Below, piece by piece: positions 5,834 to 12,180 of a DNA stretch of 64,000 nucleotides. Positions within the stretch are counted from its first letter, which is position 1. Each line of letters opens with the position of its first letter. This DNA comes from Thiobacillus denitrificans DSM 12475. Its GTDB lineage: Bacteria; Pseudomonadota; Gammaproteobacteria; Burkholderiales; Thiobacillaceae. Made by a program: the position numbers and the translations under genes. Location: assembly GCF_000376425.1 (NCBI RefSeq), contig NZ_AQWL01000004.1, positions 142,251 through 206,250 of the forward strand, read 5' to 3'. Under the pieces are notes generated by a model that saw only the letters and a program-made list of their open reading frames with translations, searched no databases and was not told where the DNA came from.

Positions 5834-6817
5834 ATGGCAAACATCATGTACTGGGAAGCGATCCAGCGCGCCCACGACGAAGAAATGGCGCGTGACCCGC
5901 TGGTCATCTGCATGGGCGAAGACATCGGCGTGGCCGGTGGCACCTACAAGGCCACCAAGGGCCTGTACGAAAAATACGGCCCGCTGCGCGTGATGGACAC
6001 GCCGATTTCCGAAGGCGGCTTCACCGGGCTGGGCATCGGCGCCTCCTTCCTCGGCGTGCGTCCCGTCATCGAAATCATGTCGGTCAACTTCGCCTGGCTG
6101 GCGATGGACCAGATGTTCAACTCCGCCGCCAAGGTGCGCTACATGTCGGGCGGTCAGCTCACGGCGCCGTGCGTGTTCCGTTCCGCCGGCGGCGCCGCGC
6201 ACCAGCTCGGCGCGCAGCACTCGGCGCGCATGGAAAAGGTGTTCATGGGCATTGCCGGCCTGCGCGTGGTGACGCCGTCCAGCCCCAGGCAGGCCTATGG
6301 CCTGTTGAAGTCGGCGATCCGCTGCGACGACCCGGTGTTCATCAACGAACACGAGCTGATGTACAACATGAAGGGCGAAGTGCCCGACGGCGAATACTTC
6401 CACCCACTGGAAGGTTCGGAGATCGCTCGCGCCGGTACCGACGTGACGCTGTTCGGCTACAACGTCTCGGTGCACTGGTGCCTCAAAGCGGCCGAAATCC
6501 TCGACAAGCAGTACGGCATCTCGGCCGAGGTCGTCGACCTCTATTCGCTGTCGCCGTTGGACCGCGAAGGCATCAAGAAATCGGTCAGCAAAACCCACCG
6601 CGCCGTCATCGCCGAGGAAGACGAAGCGCCGGTCGGTGTCGGCTCCGAAGTGATCGCCATCATCAACGAGGAATGCTTCTTCGAACTGGACGCCGCGCCG
6701 GTGCGCGTGCACTCGGCGCTGGTGCCGCAGCCCTACAACCACACGCTGGAAAAAGCGGCGATCCCGGATCACGAGGATGTGGTCAAGGCAGTACTGAAGC
6801 TGTTCGGAAAAGCGTAA
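5834..6817 (+). CDS. pdhB: Pyruvate dehydrogenase E1 component, beta subunit
   Basis: Partner of the alpha subunit; supplies the second half of the ThDP site and the E2-binding surface. The 327-residue product begins MANIMYWEAIQRAHDEEM and shows MGEDIGVAGG, the PISEGGFTGLGIGAS region, the AHQLGAQHS active-site loop (His) and VVTPSSPRQAYGLLKSAI, all family hallmarks. The ATG at 5834 is chosen over an in-frame codon at 5774 that would overlap the alpha gene; AAGGAA lies upstream. It is followed by a 112-base gap filled by a palindromic repeat before the E2-E3 gene. Confidence 0.93.
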   Translation: MANIMYWEAIQRAHDEEMARDPLVICMGEDIGVAGGTYKATKGLYEKYGPLRVMDTPISEGGFTGLGIGASFLGVRPVIEIMSVNFAWLAMDQMFNSAAKVRYMSGGQLTAPCVFRSAGGAAHQLGAQHSARMEKVFMGIAGLRVVTPSSPRQAYGLLKSAIRCDDPVFINEHELMYNMKGEVPDGEYFHPLEGSEIARAGTDVTLFGYNVSVHWCLKAAEILDKQYGISAEVVDLYSLSPLDREGIKKSVSKTHRAVIAEEDEAPVGVGSEVIAIINEECFFELDAAPVRVHSALVPQPYNHTLEKAAIPDHEDVVKAVLKLFGKA

Positions 6818-6827
6818 ACCCTTTTTT

Positions 6828-6907
6828 TCCGCGAAGGACGCGAAGGGACGCGAAGGAAAACGTCATCCCGGTGTGCCTTCTTCGCGTTTCTTCGCGTCCT
6901 TCGCGGA
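6828..6907. repeat. GCGAAGGAC-type inverted repeat, copy 1
   Basis: Left arm starts TCCGCGAAGGACGCGAAG; the right arm ends CTTCGCGTCCTTCGCGGA and is its reverse complement, with further imperfect CGCGAAG units inside. It can fold into a long stem with a loop around 6862-6880. A related copy lies at 58719-58834, so this is a dispersed element. It separates E1 beta from the E2-E3 gene and could stabilise the 3' end of the E1 message or weaken readthrough. Confidence 0.75.
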
Positions 6908-6929
6908 TGAAAGTTTTTCAGGAATAAAC

Positions 6930-9900
6930 ATGTCCCAACATTACGCCATTACGATGCCGCAACTCTCGGACACCATGACCGAGGGCGTGGTCGTCACCTG
7001 GGAAAAACAGCCCGGCGACCGCGTCGAGCGCGGCGACATCGTCGCCACGGTCGAGACCGACAAGGCGATCATGGACGTCGAAGTGTTCAAGGCCGGCTAT
7101 CTCGCTGGCCCGCTAGCCGACGTCGGTGCGACCATCGCCGTCGGTGCAGCGCTCGGCTACATCACCGACACCGCCGGCGACGTGGCGATTGCCGCCGACG
7201 AAGTGGTGGCGGAAAAGGCGCAGACCGAGATGATCCCGCACCACGCCGGCACCCCGGTGGTGATGCCGCAGCTGTCGGACACCATGACCGAAGGCGTCGT
7301 CGTCACCTGGGAGAAGCAGCCCGGCGAGGCGATCAGGCGCGGCGACATCGTCGCCACGGTCGAGACCGACAAGGCGATCATGGACGTCGAGGTGTTCCAG
7401 GAAGGCTTCCTCTCCGGCCCGATCGCCGATGTCGGCAGCGTGGTCGAGGTCGGCCATCCGATGGCCTTCATCGTCGACGATGCCGCCAAGGCCAACGACA
7501 CCGGCGTGACGATTTCCGCCGAGCACAAGGTCAAGGACATCCACAAGGTTGCCCCGCATGCGGCCGACAAGCCGGCGCATATTCCCATGCCCAAGGCTGC
7601 GCCCGCGCAGGTGTCCGCCGCCGGCAACCTGCCGCCGGTGGCGCGCCCGCAGGGCCGCCAGGCCAGCCCCTATGCGCGCAAGGTGGCGGCGCAGCTCGGC
7701 GTGAATCTCACTGGCCTTGCCGGCAGCGGCCCGTCCGGCGTGATCGTCGCCGCCGACGTGGCGCGCGCACGGCCCTCGATGCAGGAGGTCGCGCACTCGC
7801 TGCCGCAGGTCGACGTGCCGGGCCAGGGTCGTGCGATGACCTCGATGGAAAAGGCGGTGAGCCACGCGATGACCGCCTCGCTCACCCTGCCGACCTTCAA
7901 CGTCACGGTGAACATCGACACCGCGAAGCTGACCGCTGCTGCCAAGGCGAACAAGGTCTCGGTGACGGTGGCGATCGCCAAAGCGTGCTCGGTGGCGATG
8001 GCGAAGTTCCCGCGCATGAACTGGGCCTACCAGCCGGTCGACAAGCTGGTCGAGCGCGCGAACCACGACTTCGGCGTGGCGGTGATGTCGAACGACGGCG
8101 GACTGGTGGTGCCGATCCTGCACGGCATCGAGAAGAAGCCGCTGGAGGCGCTGCAGGCCGACTGGACGGGCCTCGTCGAGCGCGCCCGCGTGCGGAAGCT
8201 CGCGCCGGCCGAATATTCCAACCCCACCTTCACCATTTCCAACATGGGCATGCTGGGCGTGTCGCACTTCACCGCGATTCCCACCCCCGGCATCTCGGCG
8301 ATCCTGGCGATCGCCGCCAACGGACCGCAGGGCACGCCGTTCACCATCACTGGCGACCACCGCGTGCTGAACGGCGCCGACGTCGCGCTGTATCTCGCCA
8401 CGCTGAAGCAGACCATCGAGGCGCCTGAAGGCTGGATGGCTGGCGGCGCGGCCGCTGAAACCGTCACGGGTACGGCCGCGACCACCAGCGCCCCCGTCTC
8501 GCCGATTCCCGAGGGCAACTGGGATGTCCAGGTCGTCGTCGTCGGCGGCGGCCCCGGCGGCGAGGACTGCGCACGCGATCTCGCCGACCATGGCGTCAAG
8601 GTGATGATGGTCAACAACGAGCCCTTCCCCGGCGGCGAATGCCTGTGGCGCGGCTGCATTCCATCCAAGGCCTGGCGCGCCGCGGCGGACAATATTCGCA
8701 ACCGCGCGCACGACGCCGAGATGGGCGTCGACGGCACCAATACACCCAGGCTCAACTGGGAACAGGTCGAGAAGCACCGGCGCTGGGTACAGACCAGCCG
8801 CGGCGACATGGCGCTGAAGGCCGACAAGGGTATGAAGATCGACGTGCGCGAAGGCTACGGCGAATTCGTCGACGCCCACACGTTGAAGGTCACTCCGGTC
8901 GAGGGCGAGCCCTACACCGTTTCCTTCGGTGCCGCGGTGATTGCAACGGGCGCCCCCGCCTTCGTGCCGCCGATTCCCGGCGCGCGCGAGAACCTGGCCT
9001 CCGGCGGCGTGGTCACCTCCGACACCATCTGGAACCTCGCCGCGCCGCCGAAGAAACTCGGCATCGTCGGCGGCGGCGTGATCGGCGTCGAGATGGCGCA
9101 GATCTTCCGCGACTTCGGCACCGAGGTGCTGATGCTCGAACGCCATGACCGTATCCTCGCCGAAACCGAGGAAGAGATCGCCAAGCACCTGATCGCCTTG
9201 CTGGAAAAGGAAATCACCGTCGTCACCGGTGCCGCCATCAACGAGGTCTCCGGCAAGCCCGGCGCGATGAAGCTGCGCTACGCGAACAAGGACGGCGTCG
9301 AGTCCACCTTTGAGTGTGACGTCGTGCTGATGGCCACCGGCAAGCGTCCCGACACCAGCCGGCTGAATCTGGACAAGATCGGCGTCGAACTCGACGGCGC
9401 TGCGATCAAGGTCGACGCCCGCTGCTGCACCAGCGCGCCGAACATCTACGCGGTCGGCGACGTCATCGGCGGCTACATGCTCGCCCACACCGCCGCGACG
9501 CAAGGCCGCGTCACGGCCGACAACCTGTTGGGCCACGCAAGCGAATACGACCAGGATAAGGACTGCGGCGTCACCTTCTCGCGCCCGCAGGCCGGCTTCG
9601 TCGGCCTCTCGGTGGCGCAGGCCAAGGCCAAGGGCATCGACGCGGTGGAGGCGAAGATGCCGATGAGCATCGACGCCAAGGCGATGATCACCGGCGAGAC
9701 CGAGGGCATGATCAAGCTGGTGGCCGACAAGGCCAGCGGCCGCATCATCGGCGTGCATTACCTCGCCGACCACACCGACACCCTGATCGGCATCGGCGTG
9801 ATGATGGTCGCCGGCGAGATGACGCTGACCCAGGTCGCCAAGGCAATCTTCCCGCATCCGACCCAGACCGAGCTGTTCGGCGAACTGGCGCGGCGGCTGT

Positions 9901-9932
9901 TGAACCGCCTGCGGCGCACGGCAAAGCGATAA
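6930..9932 (+). CDS. Fused dihydrolipoamide acetyltransferase (E2) - dihydrolipoamide dehydrogenase (E3)
   Basis: One 1000-residue polypeptide carries both remaining PDH activities. Order: lipoyl domain 1 (lysine K45 in VETDKAIMD), lipoyl domain 2 (K148), E1/E3-binding domain about 245-285 (ASPYARKVAAQLGV), acetyltransferase domain about 300-510, a short Ala/Thr/Pro linker, then a complete flavin disulfide reductase from about 529 (VVVVGGGPGGEDCARDL; redox pair C571/C576 in ECLWRGCIPSK; NAD motif GIVGGGVIGVEMA; C-terminal His976-Glu981 dyad in HPTQTE). The catalytic E2 motif is HRVLNG: His477 is kept but the usual Asp is Asn481. The frame is unbroken across the junction. The ATG at 6930 has AGGAA upstream; an upstream in-frame ATG at 6873 lies inside the repeat and is rejected. 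A single sequencing error cannot explain the join because the linker is also in frame and of normal composition. Confidence 0.93.
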   Translation: MSQHYAITMPQLSDTMTEGVVVTWEKQPGDRVERGDIVATVETDKAIMDVEVFKAGYLAGPLADVGATIAVGAALGYITDTAGDVAIAADEVVAEKAQTEMIPHHAGTPVVMPQLSDTMTEGVVVTWEKQPGEAIRRGDIVATVETDKAIMDVEVFQEGFLSGPIADVGSVVEVGHPMAFIVDDAAKANDTGVTISAEHKVKDIHKVAPHAADKPAHIPMPKAAPAQVSAAGNLPPVARPQGRQASPYARKVAAQLGVNLTGLAGSGPSGVIVAADVARARPSMQEVAHSLPQVDVPGQGRAMTSMEKAVSHAMTASLTLPTFNVTVNIDTAKLTAAAKANKVSVTVAIAKACSVAMAKFPRMNWAYQPVDKLVERANHDFGVAVMSNDGGLVVPILHGIEKKPLEALQADWTGLVERARVRKLAPAEYSNPTFTISNMGMLGVSHFTAIPTPGISAILAIAANGPQGTPFTITGDHRVLNGADVALYLATLKQTIEAPEGWMAGGAAAETVTGTAATTSAPVSPIPEGNWDVQVVVVGGGPGGEDCARDLADHGVKVMMVNNEPFPGGECLWRGCIPSKAWRAAADNIRNRAHDAEMGVDGTNTPRLNWEQVEKHRRWVQTSRGDMALKADKGMKIDVREGYGEFVDAHTLKVTPVEGEPYTVSFGAAVIATGAPAFVPPIPGARENLASGGVVTSDTIWNLAAPPKKLGIVGGGVIGVEMAQIFRDFGTEVLMLERHDRILAETEEEIAKHLIALLEKEITVVTGAAINEVSGKPGAMKLRYANKDGVESTFECDVVLMATGKRPDTSRLNLDKIGVELDGAAIKVDARCCTSAPNIYAVGDVIGGYMLAHTAATQGRVTADNLLGHASEYDQDKDCGVTFSRPQAGFVGLSVAQAKAKGIDAVEAKMPMSIDAKAMITGETEGMIKLVADKASGRIIGVHYLADHTDTLIGIGVMMVAGEMTLTQVAKAIFPHPTQTELFGELARRLLNRLRRTAKR

Positions 9933-9944
9933 TCCTGCCATCCC

Positions 9945-9988
9945 CATCAATAGCAAGGGCCGCATTTGCGGCCCTTGCTATTGATGGA
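9945..9988 (+). terminator. Perfect 20-bp hairpin after the PDH operon
   Basis: Arms 9945-9964 and 9969-9988 are exact reverse complements (CCATCAATAGCAAGGGCCGC) around the loop ATTT, twelve bases after the E2-E3 stop. No T-run follows on either strand, so it may act as a 3'-end stabiliser or a factor-assisted terminator rather than a classic intrinsic terminator. Confidence 0.65.
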
Positions 9989-10101: not shown

Positions 10102-10692
10102 TTAGCGTAAGCGTGGATGCTTATCTGCCGGTTTGAAGCGATCGGGCCGATGGTCTGGAATGAATCCACCGCGATTCGGCATGGAGACTTTTACCAGACT
10201 TTCCGCAGTGACCGGCTCATCGCCGCTCATGATATTGGCCTCTGAGAGGATATATCCGGTTACCGAATATACCTCGTCATTCGTCAATGTCCCTGGCGTA
10301 TAAAATGGCATTGCCCGCTTGATGTAGTCAAACAATGTCGTTGCATAGGGCCAGTAGCTTTCAACAGTCTTGACCGGCGCTTTCTTGGGGTCATTGTTCA
10401 CCAGCGTTCCCCTCCCGCCGATCAATCGATCACCTATGCCACCTTCCAGTTTTTGTCCATGACAGGATGCACATTGCTCGTCGTAAATTTTCTTGCCCCG
10501 TGCAATCGTGCCGCTGCCTGCCGGTAGACCGCGGCCATCCGGCAAAGACGAGACGAAATCCTGTAGATCACTTGCAGATGCCGGCGCGCCAAATCCATAC
10601 CGAATCGGGTCTGCGCTCACGGTATAGGTATTAAGTGCGAACAAGGCACTGCACGCCGTGACGTGCAAAAAGAGTTTAGTAGTAGTGAACAT
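10102..10692 (-). CDS. soxD: SoxD-like c-type cytochrome subunit of sulfite/sulfane dehydrogenase
   Basis: Periplasmic electron acceptor for the molybdenum subunit encoded just upstream. The 196-residue product has a signal peptide (cleavage near TVSADP), then the SoxD N-terminal signature (PIRYGFGAPASASDL, LPDGRGLPAGSGTIARG) and one haem-binding site CASCH; Met ligands are available in RAMPFYTPG. Well-known SoxD proteins have two haem domains and are nearly twice as long; only one is present here and the frame ends naturally. It overlaps the end of soxC by 17 bases on the minus strand, so the two are translated together. Base composition is AT-richer than in neighbours (28 of 60 bases are G/C at 10261-10320, against 41 of 60 at 9061-9120). 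Confidence 0.8.
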   Translation of the reverse strand: MFTTTKLFLHVTACSALFALNTYTVSADPIRYGFGAPASASDLQDFVSSLPDGRGLPAGSGTIARGKKIYDEQCASCHGQKLEGGIGDRLIGGRGTLVNNDPKKAPVKTVESYWPYATTLFDYIKRAMPFYTPGTLTNDEVYSVTGYILSEANIMSGDEPVTAESLVKVSMPNRGGFIPDHRPDRFKPADKHPRLR

Positions 10693-12142
10693 TGCTTACC
10701 CTCCCTGCGGTATCAACCTTCCAGCTCTGGATTGCATTGAGGTGGTAAATTGAACCGATAGGCCCATTCAAACCCCGCACTTCGATAAGCTGCCCAAGCG
10801 TTGGCTGGACATACCCTGTTTCATCCACGCAACGGCTTTGCAAAATCGCATCCTTACCGTTCCACACCCAAGGAAAACGAAAACGTGTCTGGCAAATCGG
10901 CAGGATCGGGCCCTGCAAATCCGCAGGTTTCCACGTTCTCCCTCCATCGGTGGAGACATCGACACGTTTTATGCGGCCGCGTCCAGACCACGCCAACCCG
11001 CTGATCTCATAAAAACCGGGTCCGGAGAGCGTCATTTCCCCGGATGGTCGCGTAATGACCGACTTGGCATCCATGACCAGAGAGAACTGCACCGCCTTGC
11101 CACTGGGAAGCAGATCGGTATATTTTGAAGTTTCTTCGCGTGTCATGAACGGTTTGTCGGACAACTCGATCCGGCGAACCCACTTGATATGCATATTCCC
11201 CTCGTATCCTGGAACGATCAGGCGTATTGGGTACCCCTGTTCAGGGCGAATCGCTTCTCCATTCTGCCCATAGGCAAGGAAACAATCTTTCATTGCCTTG
11301 CTGATTGGGATGCTCCGCGTCATTACCGCAGAGTCACCTCCCTCTACGAGCAGCCATTTGGCACCCGATTTGACGCCGACTTCGTTCAGGATTGTCGACA
11401 GTGGAACGCCTGTCCATTCGGAAGTTGAGACGAGACCGTGCGTACCTTGTACGGTTTTCAGCGTGGGTTTCGACCATTCGGTAAGGCCATTGCCGGAACA
11501 TTCAATGAAATGGATTCGAGATATCGACGGAAAGCGCTTCACGTCCTGCATCGAGAATTTCTTTGGCTGTTTCACCATGCCATGCACGAACAGCTTATGC
11601 GTAGCTGGATCAATGGTGGCGATACCCCCATGGTGCCGCTCGAAATGCAGTCCTGACGGGGTAATGATGCCAACCCCCTGCTCCAGTGGCGTCATCGACC
11701 AGGAGGAGATGGGGGTCTTGGTGCCAAAGCGCCAACGAACCTCGGTTTCAAACTGAGAGCGCGTCCCATAGCCCCCGTCTTCGCCAATGGCGACGCCTGC
11801 AATCTTTGTGGCATCTTCCGGAACCGACCGCCATACCGCGCCTGCAGGGGCCTTGTTGTCCGGAGACAGGCCGGCGGTTTGCGCGATGGCCCTCCCCGCC
11901 ACGCCCGAACTGGCGAGCGCTGCGACGGAAGCCAGGAAATGGCGTCGGTTTTGTGGCTGTCGAAGACGATCAACCTCTTCGGCATGCCCATCTTTTACTA
12001 CCGCTGCCGGCTCAGCATGCTGGCTGAAATACACCGAATCGGCGTTTGTTCTGGCTTTGTCGATGAAGGCTTCCTCGGCCTCGACCAAAGACGCTATTTT
12101 CAATGTGTTCTTGGCGTCGTTATCCGGATCAAAGATAGACAT
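10676..12142 (-). CDS. soxC: SoxC-type sulfite/sulfane dehydrogenase, molybdopterin subunit
   Basis: Molybdenum enzyme of the sulfite oxidase family that oxidises protein-bound sulfane sulfur (SoxCD) or sulfite in the periplasm. The 488-residue product has a Tat signal (NRRHFLASVAA) after an unusually long 60-plus-residue acidic leader, the Mo-ligand cysteine in FIECSGNG, and a long stretch typical of SoxC: AKWLLVEGGDSAVMTRSIP, NGEAIRPEQGYPIRLIVPG, REETSKYTDLL, MDAKSVITRPSG and the dimerisation domain ending VDETGYVQPT. GGAGG lies seven bases before ATG 12142; an ATG two codons earlier abuts it. It is followed by soxD. No other sox genes are in the window, and the base composition is lower in GC than its surroundings. 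Confidence 0.88.
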   Translation of the reverse strand: MSIFDPDNDAKNTLKIASLVEAEEAFIDKARTNADSVYFSQHAEPAAVVKDGHAEEVDRLRQPQNRRHFLASVAALASSGVAGRAIAQTAGLSPDNKAPAGAVWRSVPEDATKIAGVAIGEDGGYGTRSQFETEVRWRFGTKTPISSWSMTPLEQGVGIITPSGLHFERHHGGIATIDPATHKLFVHGMVKQPKKFSMQDVKRFPSISRIHFIECSGNGLTEWSKPTLKTVQGTHGLVSTSEWTGVPLSTILNEVGVKSGAKWLLVEGGDSAVMTRSIPISKAMKDCFLAYGQNGEAIRPEQGYPIRLIVPGYEGNMHIKWVRRIELSDKPFMTREETSKYTDLLPSGKAVQFSLVMDAKSVITRPSGEMTLSGPGFYEISGLAWSGRGRIKRVDVSTDGGRTWKPADLQGPILPICQTRFRFPWVWNGKDAILQSRCVDETGYVQPTLGQLIEVRGLNGPIGSIYHLNAIQSWKVDTAGRVSNVHYY

Positions 12143-12180
12143 CTTCATTCCTCCATTTTTATGGATAAGCCATTGAGCTC

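Follow-up and report, generated by a model that had tools for sequence, protein, structure and literature searches.

E3, dihydrolipoamide dehydrogenase, is the textbook example of a shared component: one pool of it can serve the pyruvate, 2-oxoglutarate and glycine systems. What, then, is to be made of a gene that joins E3 in frame to the acyltransferase (E2) of pyruvate dehydrogenase? The question is raised by a stretch of 64,000 nucleotides from Thiobacillus denitrificans DSM 12475 (contig NZ_AQWL01000004.1, positions 142,251 to 206,250), hereafter the window, in which a 1000-residue frame follows the two pyruvate dehydrogenase E1 genes (Table 1). We consider it likely that this gene is a real, conserved E2-E3 fusion and that its product is a core subunit of pyruvate dehydrogenase with a built-in E3, because the chain is uninterrupted, the E1 genes lie upstream, the catalytic residues are intact, both halves point to common descent, and separate E3 genes follow a telling pattern among the genomes that carry the fusion.

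An initial annotation had read in the window an uninterrupted frame with two lipoyl domains, an E1/E3-binding domain, an acyltransferase domain and a full E3. The open frame bears this out, and every domain exceeds its Pfam gathering score on the 1000-residue chain (Biotin_lipoyl twice, E3_binding at residues 244-277, 2-oxoacid_dh at 302-503, Pyr_redox_2 at 534-859 and Pyr_redox_dim at 881-986). The genome survey for E2 and E3 as one chain that had been suggested then found the same architecture elsewhere. Within the genus, a stop-free chain from residues 1-3 to residue 1000 is present in 23 of 37 genomes; among the other 14, 12 hold partial pieces and two (G007 and G022, 82% and 75% complete) have weak best matches only, at 6.7e-16 and 5.7e-45. 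The pieces in G008, a 70% complete draft, are spread over several frames. The class, sampled evenly, contributed 369 genomes; 79 of them, in 57 of 272 genera and referred to below as carriers, match at 1e-80 or better, and at least 64 contain a single stop-free row across both enzymes; a carrier is called full-span where one such row begins no later than residue 165 and reaches at least residue 942. When 398 genomes of the phylum were queried with the relative L027, 33 matched at 1e-75; in three of these the match is a single chain, and in the remaining 30 the matched stretch is interrupted by one to three stops, as for separate neighbouring genes. A scan of GTDB species genomes for the pattern [FL]PGGECLW or IG[VML]EMAQI yielded 438 stretches and 376 confirmed relatives, the best 80 of which were kept; a fused state is not claimed for all of the other 296. 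By title, the kept relatives are mostly uncultured Gammaproteobacteria, together with Thiohalophilus thiocyanatoxydans DSM 16326, Thiohalomonas, Thiohalobacter, Thiogranum and one betaproteobacterial assembly; two with odd labels, Desulfobacteraceae and Spirochaetia, may be binning errors. The fused chain is a widespread family, represented below by 121 distinct chains (143 loci minus 22 duplicates), and no stop or frameshift was seen at the E2-E3 joint in the relatives. The genomes compared include drafts, and related genomes are not independent. Another arrangement was seen in G345, where E2-like and E3-like fusion pieces (L182, L183) are separated by about 2.1 Mb on a single scaffold containing runs of N, probably through misassembly, a true split being possible.

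The proposed location beside pdhA and pdhB holds equally well. In the window, pyruvate-type E1 genes adjoin E2, with TIGR03182 and NF006667 both above cut-off, and among 94 loci with at least 2.3 kb of upstream sequence, all 90 fused loci (some of them one genome fetched twice) have E1-alpha and E1-beta upstream on the same strand, the E1-beta gene ending at most 935 bases 5' of the first aligned fusion residue; the other four (L145, L150, L158 and L160) are unfused comparison loci. The redox pair C571/C576 and the pair H976/E981 had been correctly named: both are invariant in 48 aligned fusion chains (the first alignment was made without rows L001, L018 and L019). The E3 half thus retains the redox Cys pair, the His-Glu pair and the flavin adenine dinucleotide (FAD) and nicotinamide adenine dinucleotide (NAD) folds of dihydrolipoamide dehydrogenase. 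All 121 distinct chains contain CLWRGC. Selection accounts for part of this, because the chains come in part from the GTDB scan and were filtered for its first pattern, which leaves the E2 motif Asn and the joint spacing described below unaffected. HPTxxE is found in 120, the remaining chain being cut, and the NAD strand ends in Glu in 115, with five chains unread and one bearing another residue.

The E2 half keeps its catalytic apparatus with some peculiarities. Its active-site motif reads DHRxxNG in 121/121 chains, as against DHRxxDG in the stand-alone E2s compared; the catalytic His of the HxxxDG-type motif is kept in every chain, and Asp has become Asn in all of them. We rejected the idea that this replacement inactivates E2. 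The E2p of Azotobacter vinelandii is a stand-alone E2. According to an excerpt of PMC8421416, it naturally has Asn at the same position, so that Asn need not impair catalysis. Aligned with eight or nine stand-alone E2s (row F_L043 of this alignment is blank), the fused E2s lack 12 residues directly before DHRxxNG, and in 102 of 121 chains they end in P-x-x-W in place of the usual hydrophobic tail. Seven chains have no lipoyl site and 13 have one, partly because contigs are cut. Within the 101 two-site chains (window 6942-7478), lipoyl domains 1 and 2 resemble each other with a median of 0.79, the same value as first domains between chains, which hints at homogenisation or strong constraint. 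In the subunit-binding domain, an Arg that may take part in E3 binding is replaced by another residue in all 112 chains readable by pattern, out of 121. As a sign of lost E3 binding this replacement was weakened, since an E2 binding domain in the PDB (entry 1w4i) has the same Val at this place.

Phylogeny points to common descent for both halves. The fused E3s form one clade (28 rows, support 100/100) outside 18 stand-alone rows labelled E3, of which three exceed the family cut-off, 13 come from loci with neighbouring E2 and E3 genes, and two (L169 and L179) have no family assignment, L169 joining the mercuric reductases in the tree. The fused E2s likewise form one clade (100/100), with an unfused E2 from G269 nested within it as sister to the fused chain of G372, a genome of the same family (100/100). 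This stand-alone E2 stops a few residues past the P-x-x-W end, no E3 half follows on its contig, and the genome has a canonical separate E3 scoring 539 bits. At that locus (L184, 1584-6541), a GGDEF-EAL gene and a small frame resembling HicB/HicA, both labelled by reading, come between E1-beta and the fused-type E2, which stands alone. The locus looks like a disrupted operon that has lost its E3 half, although a piece may lie elsewhere in this draft genome. Since both halves form clades of their own, the fusion probably arose once, followed by at least one loss of the E3 half. The identities of E2 and E3 halves are a weak line of evidence, since they correlate only moderately (Spearman 0.59 over 110 chains; 11 of 121 were left out, ten without the core motif used and one too short).

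If E3 is built into the pyruvate dehydrogenase core, one may ask what separate E3 genes are kept for. The E1 of 2-oxoglutarate dehydrogenase is present in 43 of the 79 carriers. We called a separate E3 clearly canonical when its best match to the E3 model TIGR01350 had an E-value below 1e-127, a line chosen after the scores were seen; four candidates were scored per genome, and Fisher values for the survey ignore kinship. Such an E3 is found in 33/33 full-span carriers with 2-oxoglutarate dehydrogenase and in 0/31 without it, and over all 79 carriers in 41/43 and 1/36, respectively (42/43 if one counts L190 of G093, a partial E3 that is 53% identical to a canonical one). Among non-carriers without 2-oxoglutarate dehydrogenase, 35 of 53 have a clearly canonical separate E3, so the split in carriers is not a mere effect of lacking that complex. 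The genome of the window itself has a 2-oxoglutarate dehydrogenase E2 on contig C3 and one stand-alone E3 on contig C7 (449.5 bits, cut-off 408.8). Because the canonical separate E3 tracks 2-oxoglutarate dehydrogenase in carriers, the fused E3 looks dedicated to pyruvate dehydrogenase. RuBisCO was found in 71 of 79 carriers and in 103 of the 290 other genomes, again with kinship ignored.

Having no canonical E3 cannot be equated with having no other E3-like protein, an equation that we rejected because further homologues are present. Of the 31 full-span carriers that lack 2-oxoglutarate dehydrogenase, 15 had their homologues listed in depth, and some of these homologues were named. The idea that best scores between 1e-115 and 1e-125 belong to the fused chain itself proved wrong in most of the 16 genomes listed; further top matches there are a Si-specific transhydrogenase (L198) and NF004991-like proteins below the NF004991 cut-off (L192, L193, L197 and L207). 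Eight homologues were named in G079, G182, G185 and G192. Seven of them exceed the cut-off of another family (glutathione reductase, Si-specific transhydrogenase or mercuric reductase), the eighth being L179 of G079. Among the 36 carriers that lack 2-oxoglutarate dehydrogenase, 34 have an above-cut-off match to GcvH, the glycine-cleavage H protein, and GcvP adjoins it in the four single-contig genomes tested. In two of these four, G185 and G192, the fused E3 is the only E3-type candidate found to reoxidise GcvH. Nine genomes (G079, G086, G149, G181, G216, G232, G267, G296 and G340) have four GcvH-like matches each, several in close pairs about 1 kb apart, which may be pairs of LbpA, a lipoate-binding protein of sulfur oxidation. 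Several carriers likewise have GcvH-like matches below cut-off, and these may be LbpA. A more ambitious and quite tentative proposal is that the fusion defines a distinct pyruvate dehydrogenase architecture, in which core-built E3 dimers would hold the E2 trimers together and, in carriers without 2-oxoglutarate dehydrogenase like G185 and G192, the sole E3 would also reoxidise the H protein and, in sulfur oxidisers, LbpA, acting as a shared lipoyl-oxidising station.

How such a subunit might work can be outlined from its domains. From what is known of the family, E1 (alpha2-beta2) would dock on the subunit-binding domain, and lipoyl arms on Lys45 and Lys148 would take up acetyl at E1 and deliver it to the E2 site (His477/Asn481); the reduced dithiol would then reach the E3 in which that core subunit ends, yielding NADH. 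With one E3 per E2 chain by construction, the ratio is locked at 1:1, as the initial annotation had foreseen. Its suggestion that the binding domain has become partly redundant is not supported: in pyruvate dehydrogenase this domain can take E1 or E3, as stated in PMC8421416, so that fusing E3 would free it for E1. For the assembly, our expectations are more guarded. The E2 domain would form a trimer with its C-terminal helix on a two-fold axis, and the E3, a dimer, would begin about 14 residues further on, so E3 dimers probably sit on two-fold axes, where they might brace or form the joints between trimers. In E. coli E2p, a short C-terminal helix on the two-fold axis is the main trimer-trimer contact, according to a passage in PMC8421416. 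E3 pairs across two-fold axes would suit a cage or a hexamer alike.

Several observations weigh against the reading of a dedicated, built-in E3 in a pyruvate dehydrogenase core. The E3 half scores 366.3 bits for TIGR01350, below the cut-off of 408.8, as does every fused chain scored (355-391 bits), and the E2 half reaches 277.8 bits for TIGR01349, whose cut-off is 445 (239.6 to 327.0 bits in four relatives). The fused E3 clade stands on a long branch on the glutathione/mercuric reductase side of a midpoint-rooted tree whose deep support there is weak (92/78). In the predicted structure of the window protein, the predicted local distance difference test (pLDDT) falls below 50 at residues 506-523, in an Ala/Thr-rich insert, which fits a loose tether. 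Separate E3-like proteins also complicate the picture. If the bare TIGR01350 cut-off is applied, G204, G317 and G412, all of one genus, do have a match, which makes three among the 31 full-span carriers that lack 2-oxoglutarate dehydrogenase. Their top match (L187 1429-3561 on the minus strand, L188 and L189) has 711 residues, an N-terminal VTT membrane domain followed by an E3-like flavoprotein; L187 scores 414 bits for TIGR01350 against 530 for NF004991, and the protein may be a different fusion that anchors a disulfide reductase to the membrane. L191 of G272 and L194 of G105 stand alone, with TIGR01350 as best model at 397 and 391 bits, below the cut-off, and L179 of G079 is a further below-cut-off E3-like protein; none of the three could be placed in another family. 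A dedicated, sole E3 is therefore not certain in every carrier without 2-oxoglutarate dehydrogenase. Finally, the E2 tail departs from the hydrophobic end that is usual, which makes assembly into a cage uncertain.

This last point leads to the most durable alternative, which leaves the function unchanged and alters the assembly. It is quite possible, if short of an even prospect, that the chains close into a small hexamer of two E2 trimers and three E3 dimers, like OdhA, rather than into a 24- or 60-subunit cage. In OdhA, a trimeric E2 domain and a dimeric E1 domain make an 800-kDa homohexamer held by both symmetries, as described in the portion of PMC10415282 available. The present chain likewise fuses a trimer to a dimer, and the hydrophobic tail has given way to the P-x-x-W end. 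Against a hexamer, the models still show a short helix where the C-terminal knob belongs (residues 500-503 in the window protein and 514-517 in L027), so cage contacts may persist. The models were returned without relative-placement confidence, and the mutual orientation of E2 and E3 is outside their reach.

The core-subunit reading also requires that the chain stays whole. An internal start or proteolysis could split it during or after translation into an ordinary E2 and E3, which we regard as improbable. The joint of the window protein, a flexible Ala/Thr-rich stretch, would favour such a split, but the joint is shorter and more constant in many family members: DHRxxNG is followed by the FAD motif of E3 after exactly 40 residues in 77 of 121 chains and after 41 to 66 residues in the rest. 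In the one 40-residue chain modelled with AlphaFold2, L027, the joint is predicted to be ordered, with block means of 77-91, and values below 50 are confined to linkers such as those at 89-115, 209-236 and 288-306. Nor is an internal ATG conserved: an in-frame Met occurs between the P-x-x-W end and the FAD motif in 14/121 chains, and in the 102 P-x-x-W chains the Trp is followed by Met (67 chains), Ile (19) or Leu (16).

That the E3 half might be another disulfide reductase carried by the complex, not dihydrolipoamide dehydrogenase, is very unlikely. Its TIGR01350 score below cut-off and its own deep clade outside the stand-alone E3 rows speak for this identity; however, TIGR01350 is the best-scoring model for the window E3 half, the best-ranked solved structures are lipoamide dehydrogenases, and the Cys pair, the His-Glu pair and, in most chains, the Glu of the NAD strand are kept. 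Moreover, every other full-length homologue found in the complete genomes G185 and G192 is a mercuric reductase, a glutathione reductase or a Si-specific transhydrogenase, so that pyruvate dehydrogenase would have no E3 there but the fused one. With both halves below their NCBIfam equivalog cut-offs, we base the names E2 and E3 on domain content, motifs, the predicted structure and the gene context. The best 50 Foldseek rows are taken up by E3-type structures, so the structural comparison bears on the fold of the E3 half. Among the matches listed from plasmid records, no close stand-alone relative of either half was found, the best rows being 35.6% and 34.9% identical and all below 60%; of the unfused proteins compared, L191 (1480-2889, minus strand) of the carrier G272 comes nearest to the fused E3 but is still distant, at 34-36% identity. 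An assembly or sequencing artefact joining neighbouring genes, for which we found no support beyond the broken frames of the draft G008, is refuted by the same chain in 121 distinct sequences, single-contig genomes included.

Table 1. Features of the pyruvate dehydrogenase locus, in positions of the window
Feature	Position	Strand	Basis
pdhA, pyruvate dehydrogenase E1 alpha, 333 residues	4813..5814	+	E1_dh 5.2e-84; TIGR03182 415.3 bits, cut-off 393.85
pdhB, pyruvate dehydrogenase E1 beta	5834..6817	+	Transket_pyr, Transketolase_C; NF006667 359.1 bits, cut-off 321; start picked by reading
REP-like inverted repeat between pdhB and the fusion gene	6823..6912	no strand	33-nt arms, 88% complementary
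Fused E2-E3 gene	6930..9932	+	ATG to TAA, 1000 residues; whole chain also in relatives
Lipoyl domain 1, residues ~5-79, Lys45 in ETDKA	6942..7166	+	Biotin_lipoyl; modelled strands; Lys by motif
Lipoyl domain 2, residues ~109-183, lipoyl Lys148	7254..7478	+	Biotin_lipoyl; Lys148 invariant in 48 chains
Peripheral subunit-binding domain, residues 244-277	7659..7760	+	E3_binding 8.3e-11; sequence match to PDB subunit-binding domains
E2 acyltransferase domain, residues ~297-503, DHRVLNG (His477, Asn481)	7818..8438	+	2-oxoacid_dh 3.1e-41
E2-E3 junction, residues 504-531, Ala/Thr-rich insert	8439..8522	+	pLDDT <50 at 506-523
E3-type domain, residues 532-1000: FAD motif, C571-x4-C576, NAD domain, H976-E981	8523..9929	+	
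Palindrome 3' of the fusion gene, possible transcription end	9946..9985	+	Direct reading of sequence

The palindrome downstream of the fusion gene was not picked up by a scan for T-tailed terminators. The 16-nt arm core of the repetitive extragenic palindrome (REP)-like element occurs 15 times in the genome, often in opposed pairs, as against zero for a reversed-pattern control. Beyond the operon, on the other strand (10102-12148), a small c-type cytochrome gene adjoins a SoxC/sulfite-dehydrogenase-like gene, both labelled from reading their translations.

The fusion is a real, widespread variant of a known complex and more general than one window could show; what a single window could not reveal is the extent of the family, its shorter and more constant joints, and the tie between separate E3 and 2-oxoglutarate dehydrogenase. 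No description of this E2-E3 fusion was found by title and abstract in the open literature searched, subscription papers being mostly outside this scope. Across many families, bacteria that mostly possess RuBisCO have their E3 tied to the core of pyruvate dehydrogenase, and the retention of a clearly canonical free E3 chiefly alongside 2-oxoglutarate dehydrogenase offers a natural test of E3 sharing. Some carriers may have no free E3 at all, the fixed, fused one being the only E3-type protein found, which raises the question of how their other lipoyl proteins are served. That E3 is fixed and linked in its occurrence to 2-oxoglutarate dehydrogenase should surprise specialists. The joining of a trimer to a dimer also presents a tractable assembly problem.

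In gene order, domains and catalytic residues, the locus resembles an ordinary pyruvate dehydrogenase with E1-alpha, E1-beta, and separate E2 and E3, except that E2 and E3 are one chain here. The window halves are 24-33% identical to the stand-alone E2s and E3s compared (34% for the best later row, L191), and the fused E2 differs from stand-alone E2s by the missing 12 residues and by Asn for Asp, the latter shared with A. vinelandii E2p. The lipoyl-domain-bearing E3 of the Neisseria type similarly joins E3 to extra parts of pyruvate dehydrogenase, but it is not known to gain more than a lipoyl domain, whereas a complete E2 is attached here. A parallel in design is actinobacterial OdhA, the E2-E1 protein of 2-oxoglutarate dehydrogenase, in which a trimeric acyltransferase is joined to a dimeric enzyme as in the present chain; OdhA, however, fuses E1 rather than E3 and takes its lipoyl groups in trans, according to the excerpted text of PMC10415282, while E1 here is encoded by two separate upstream genes.

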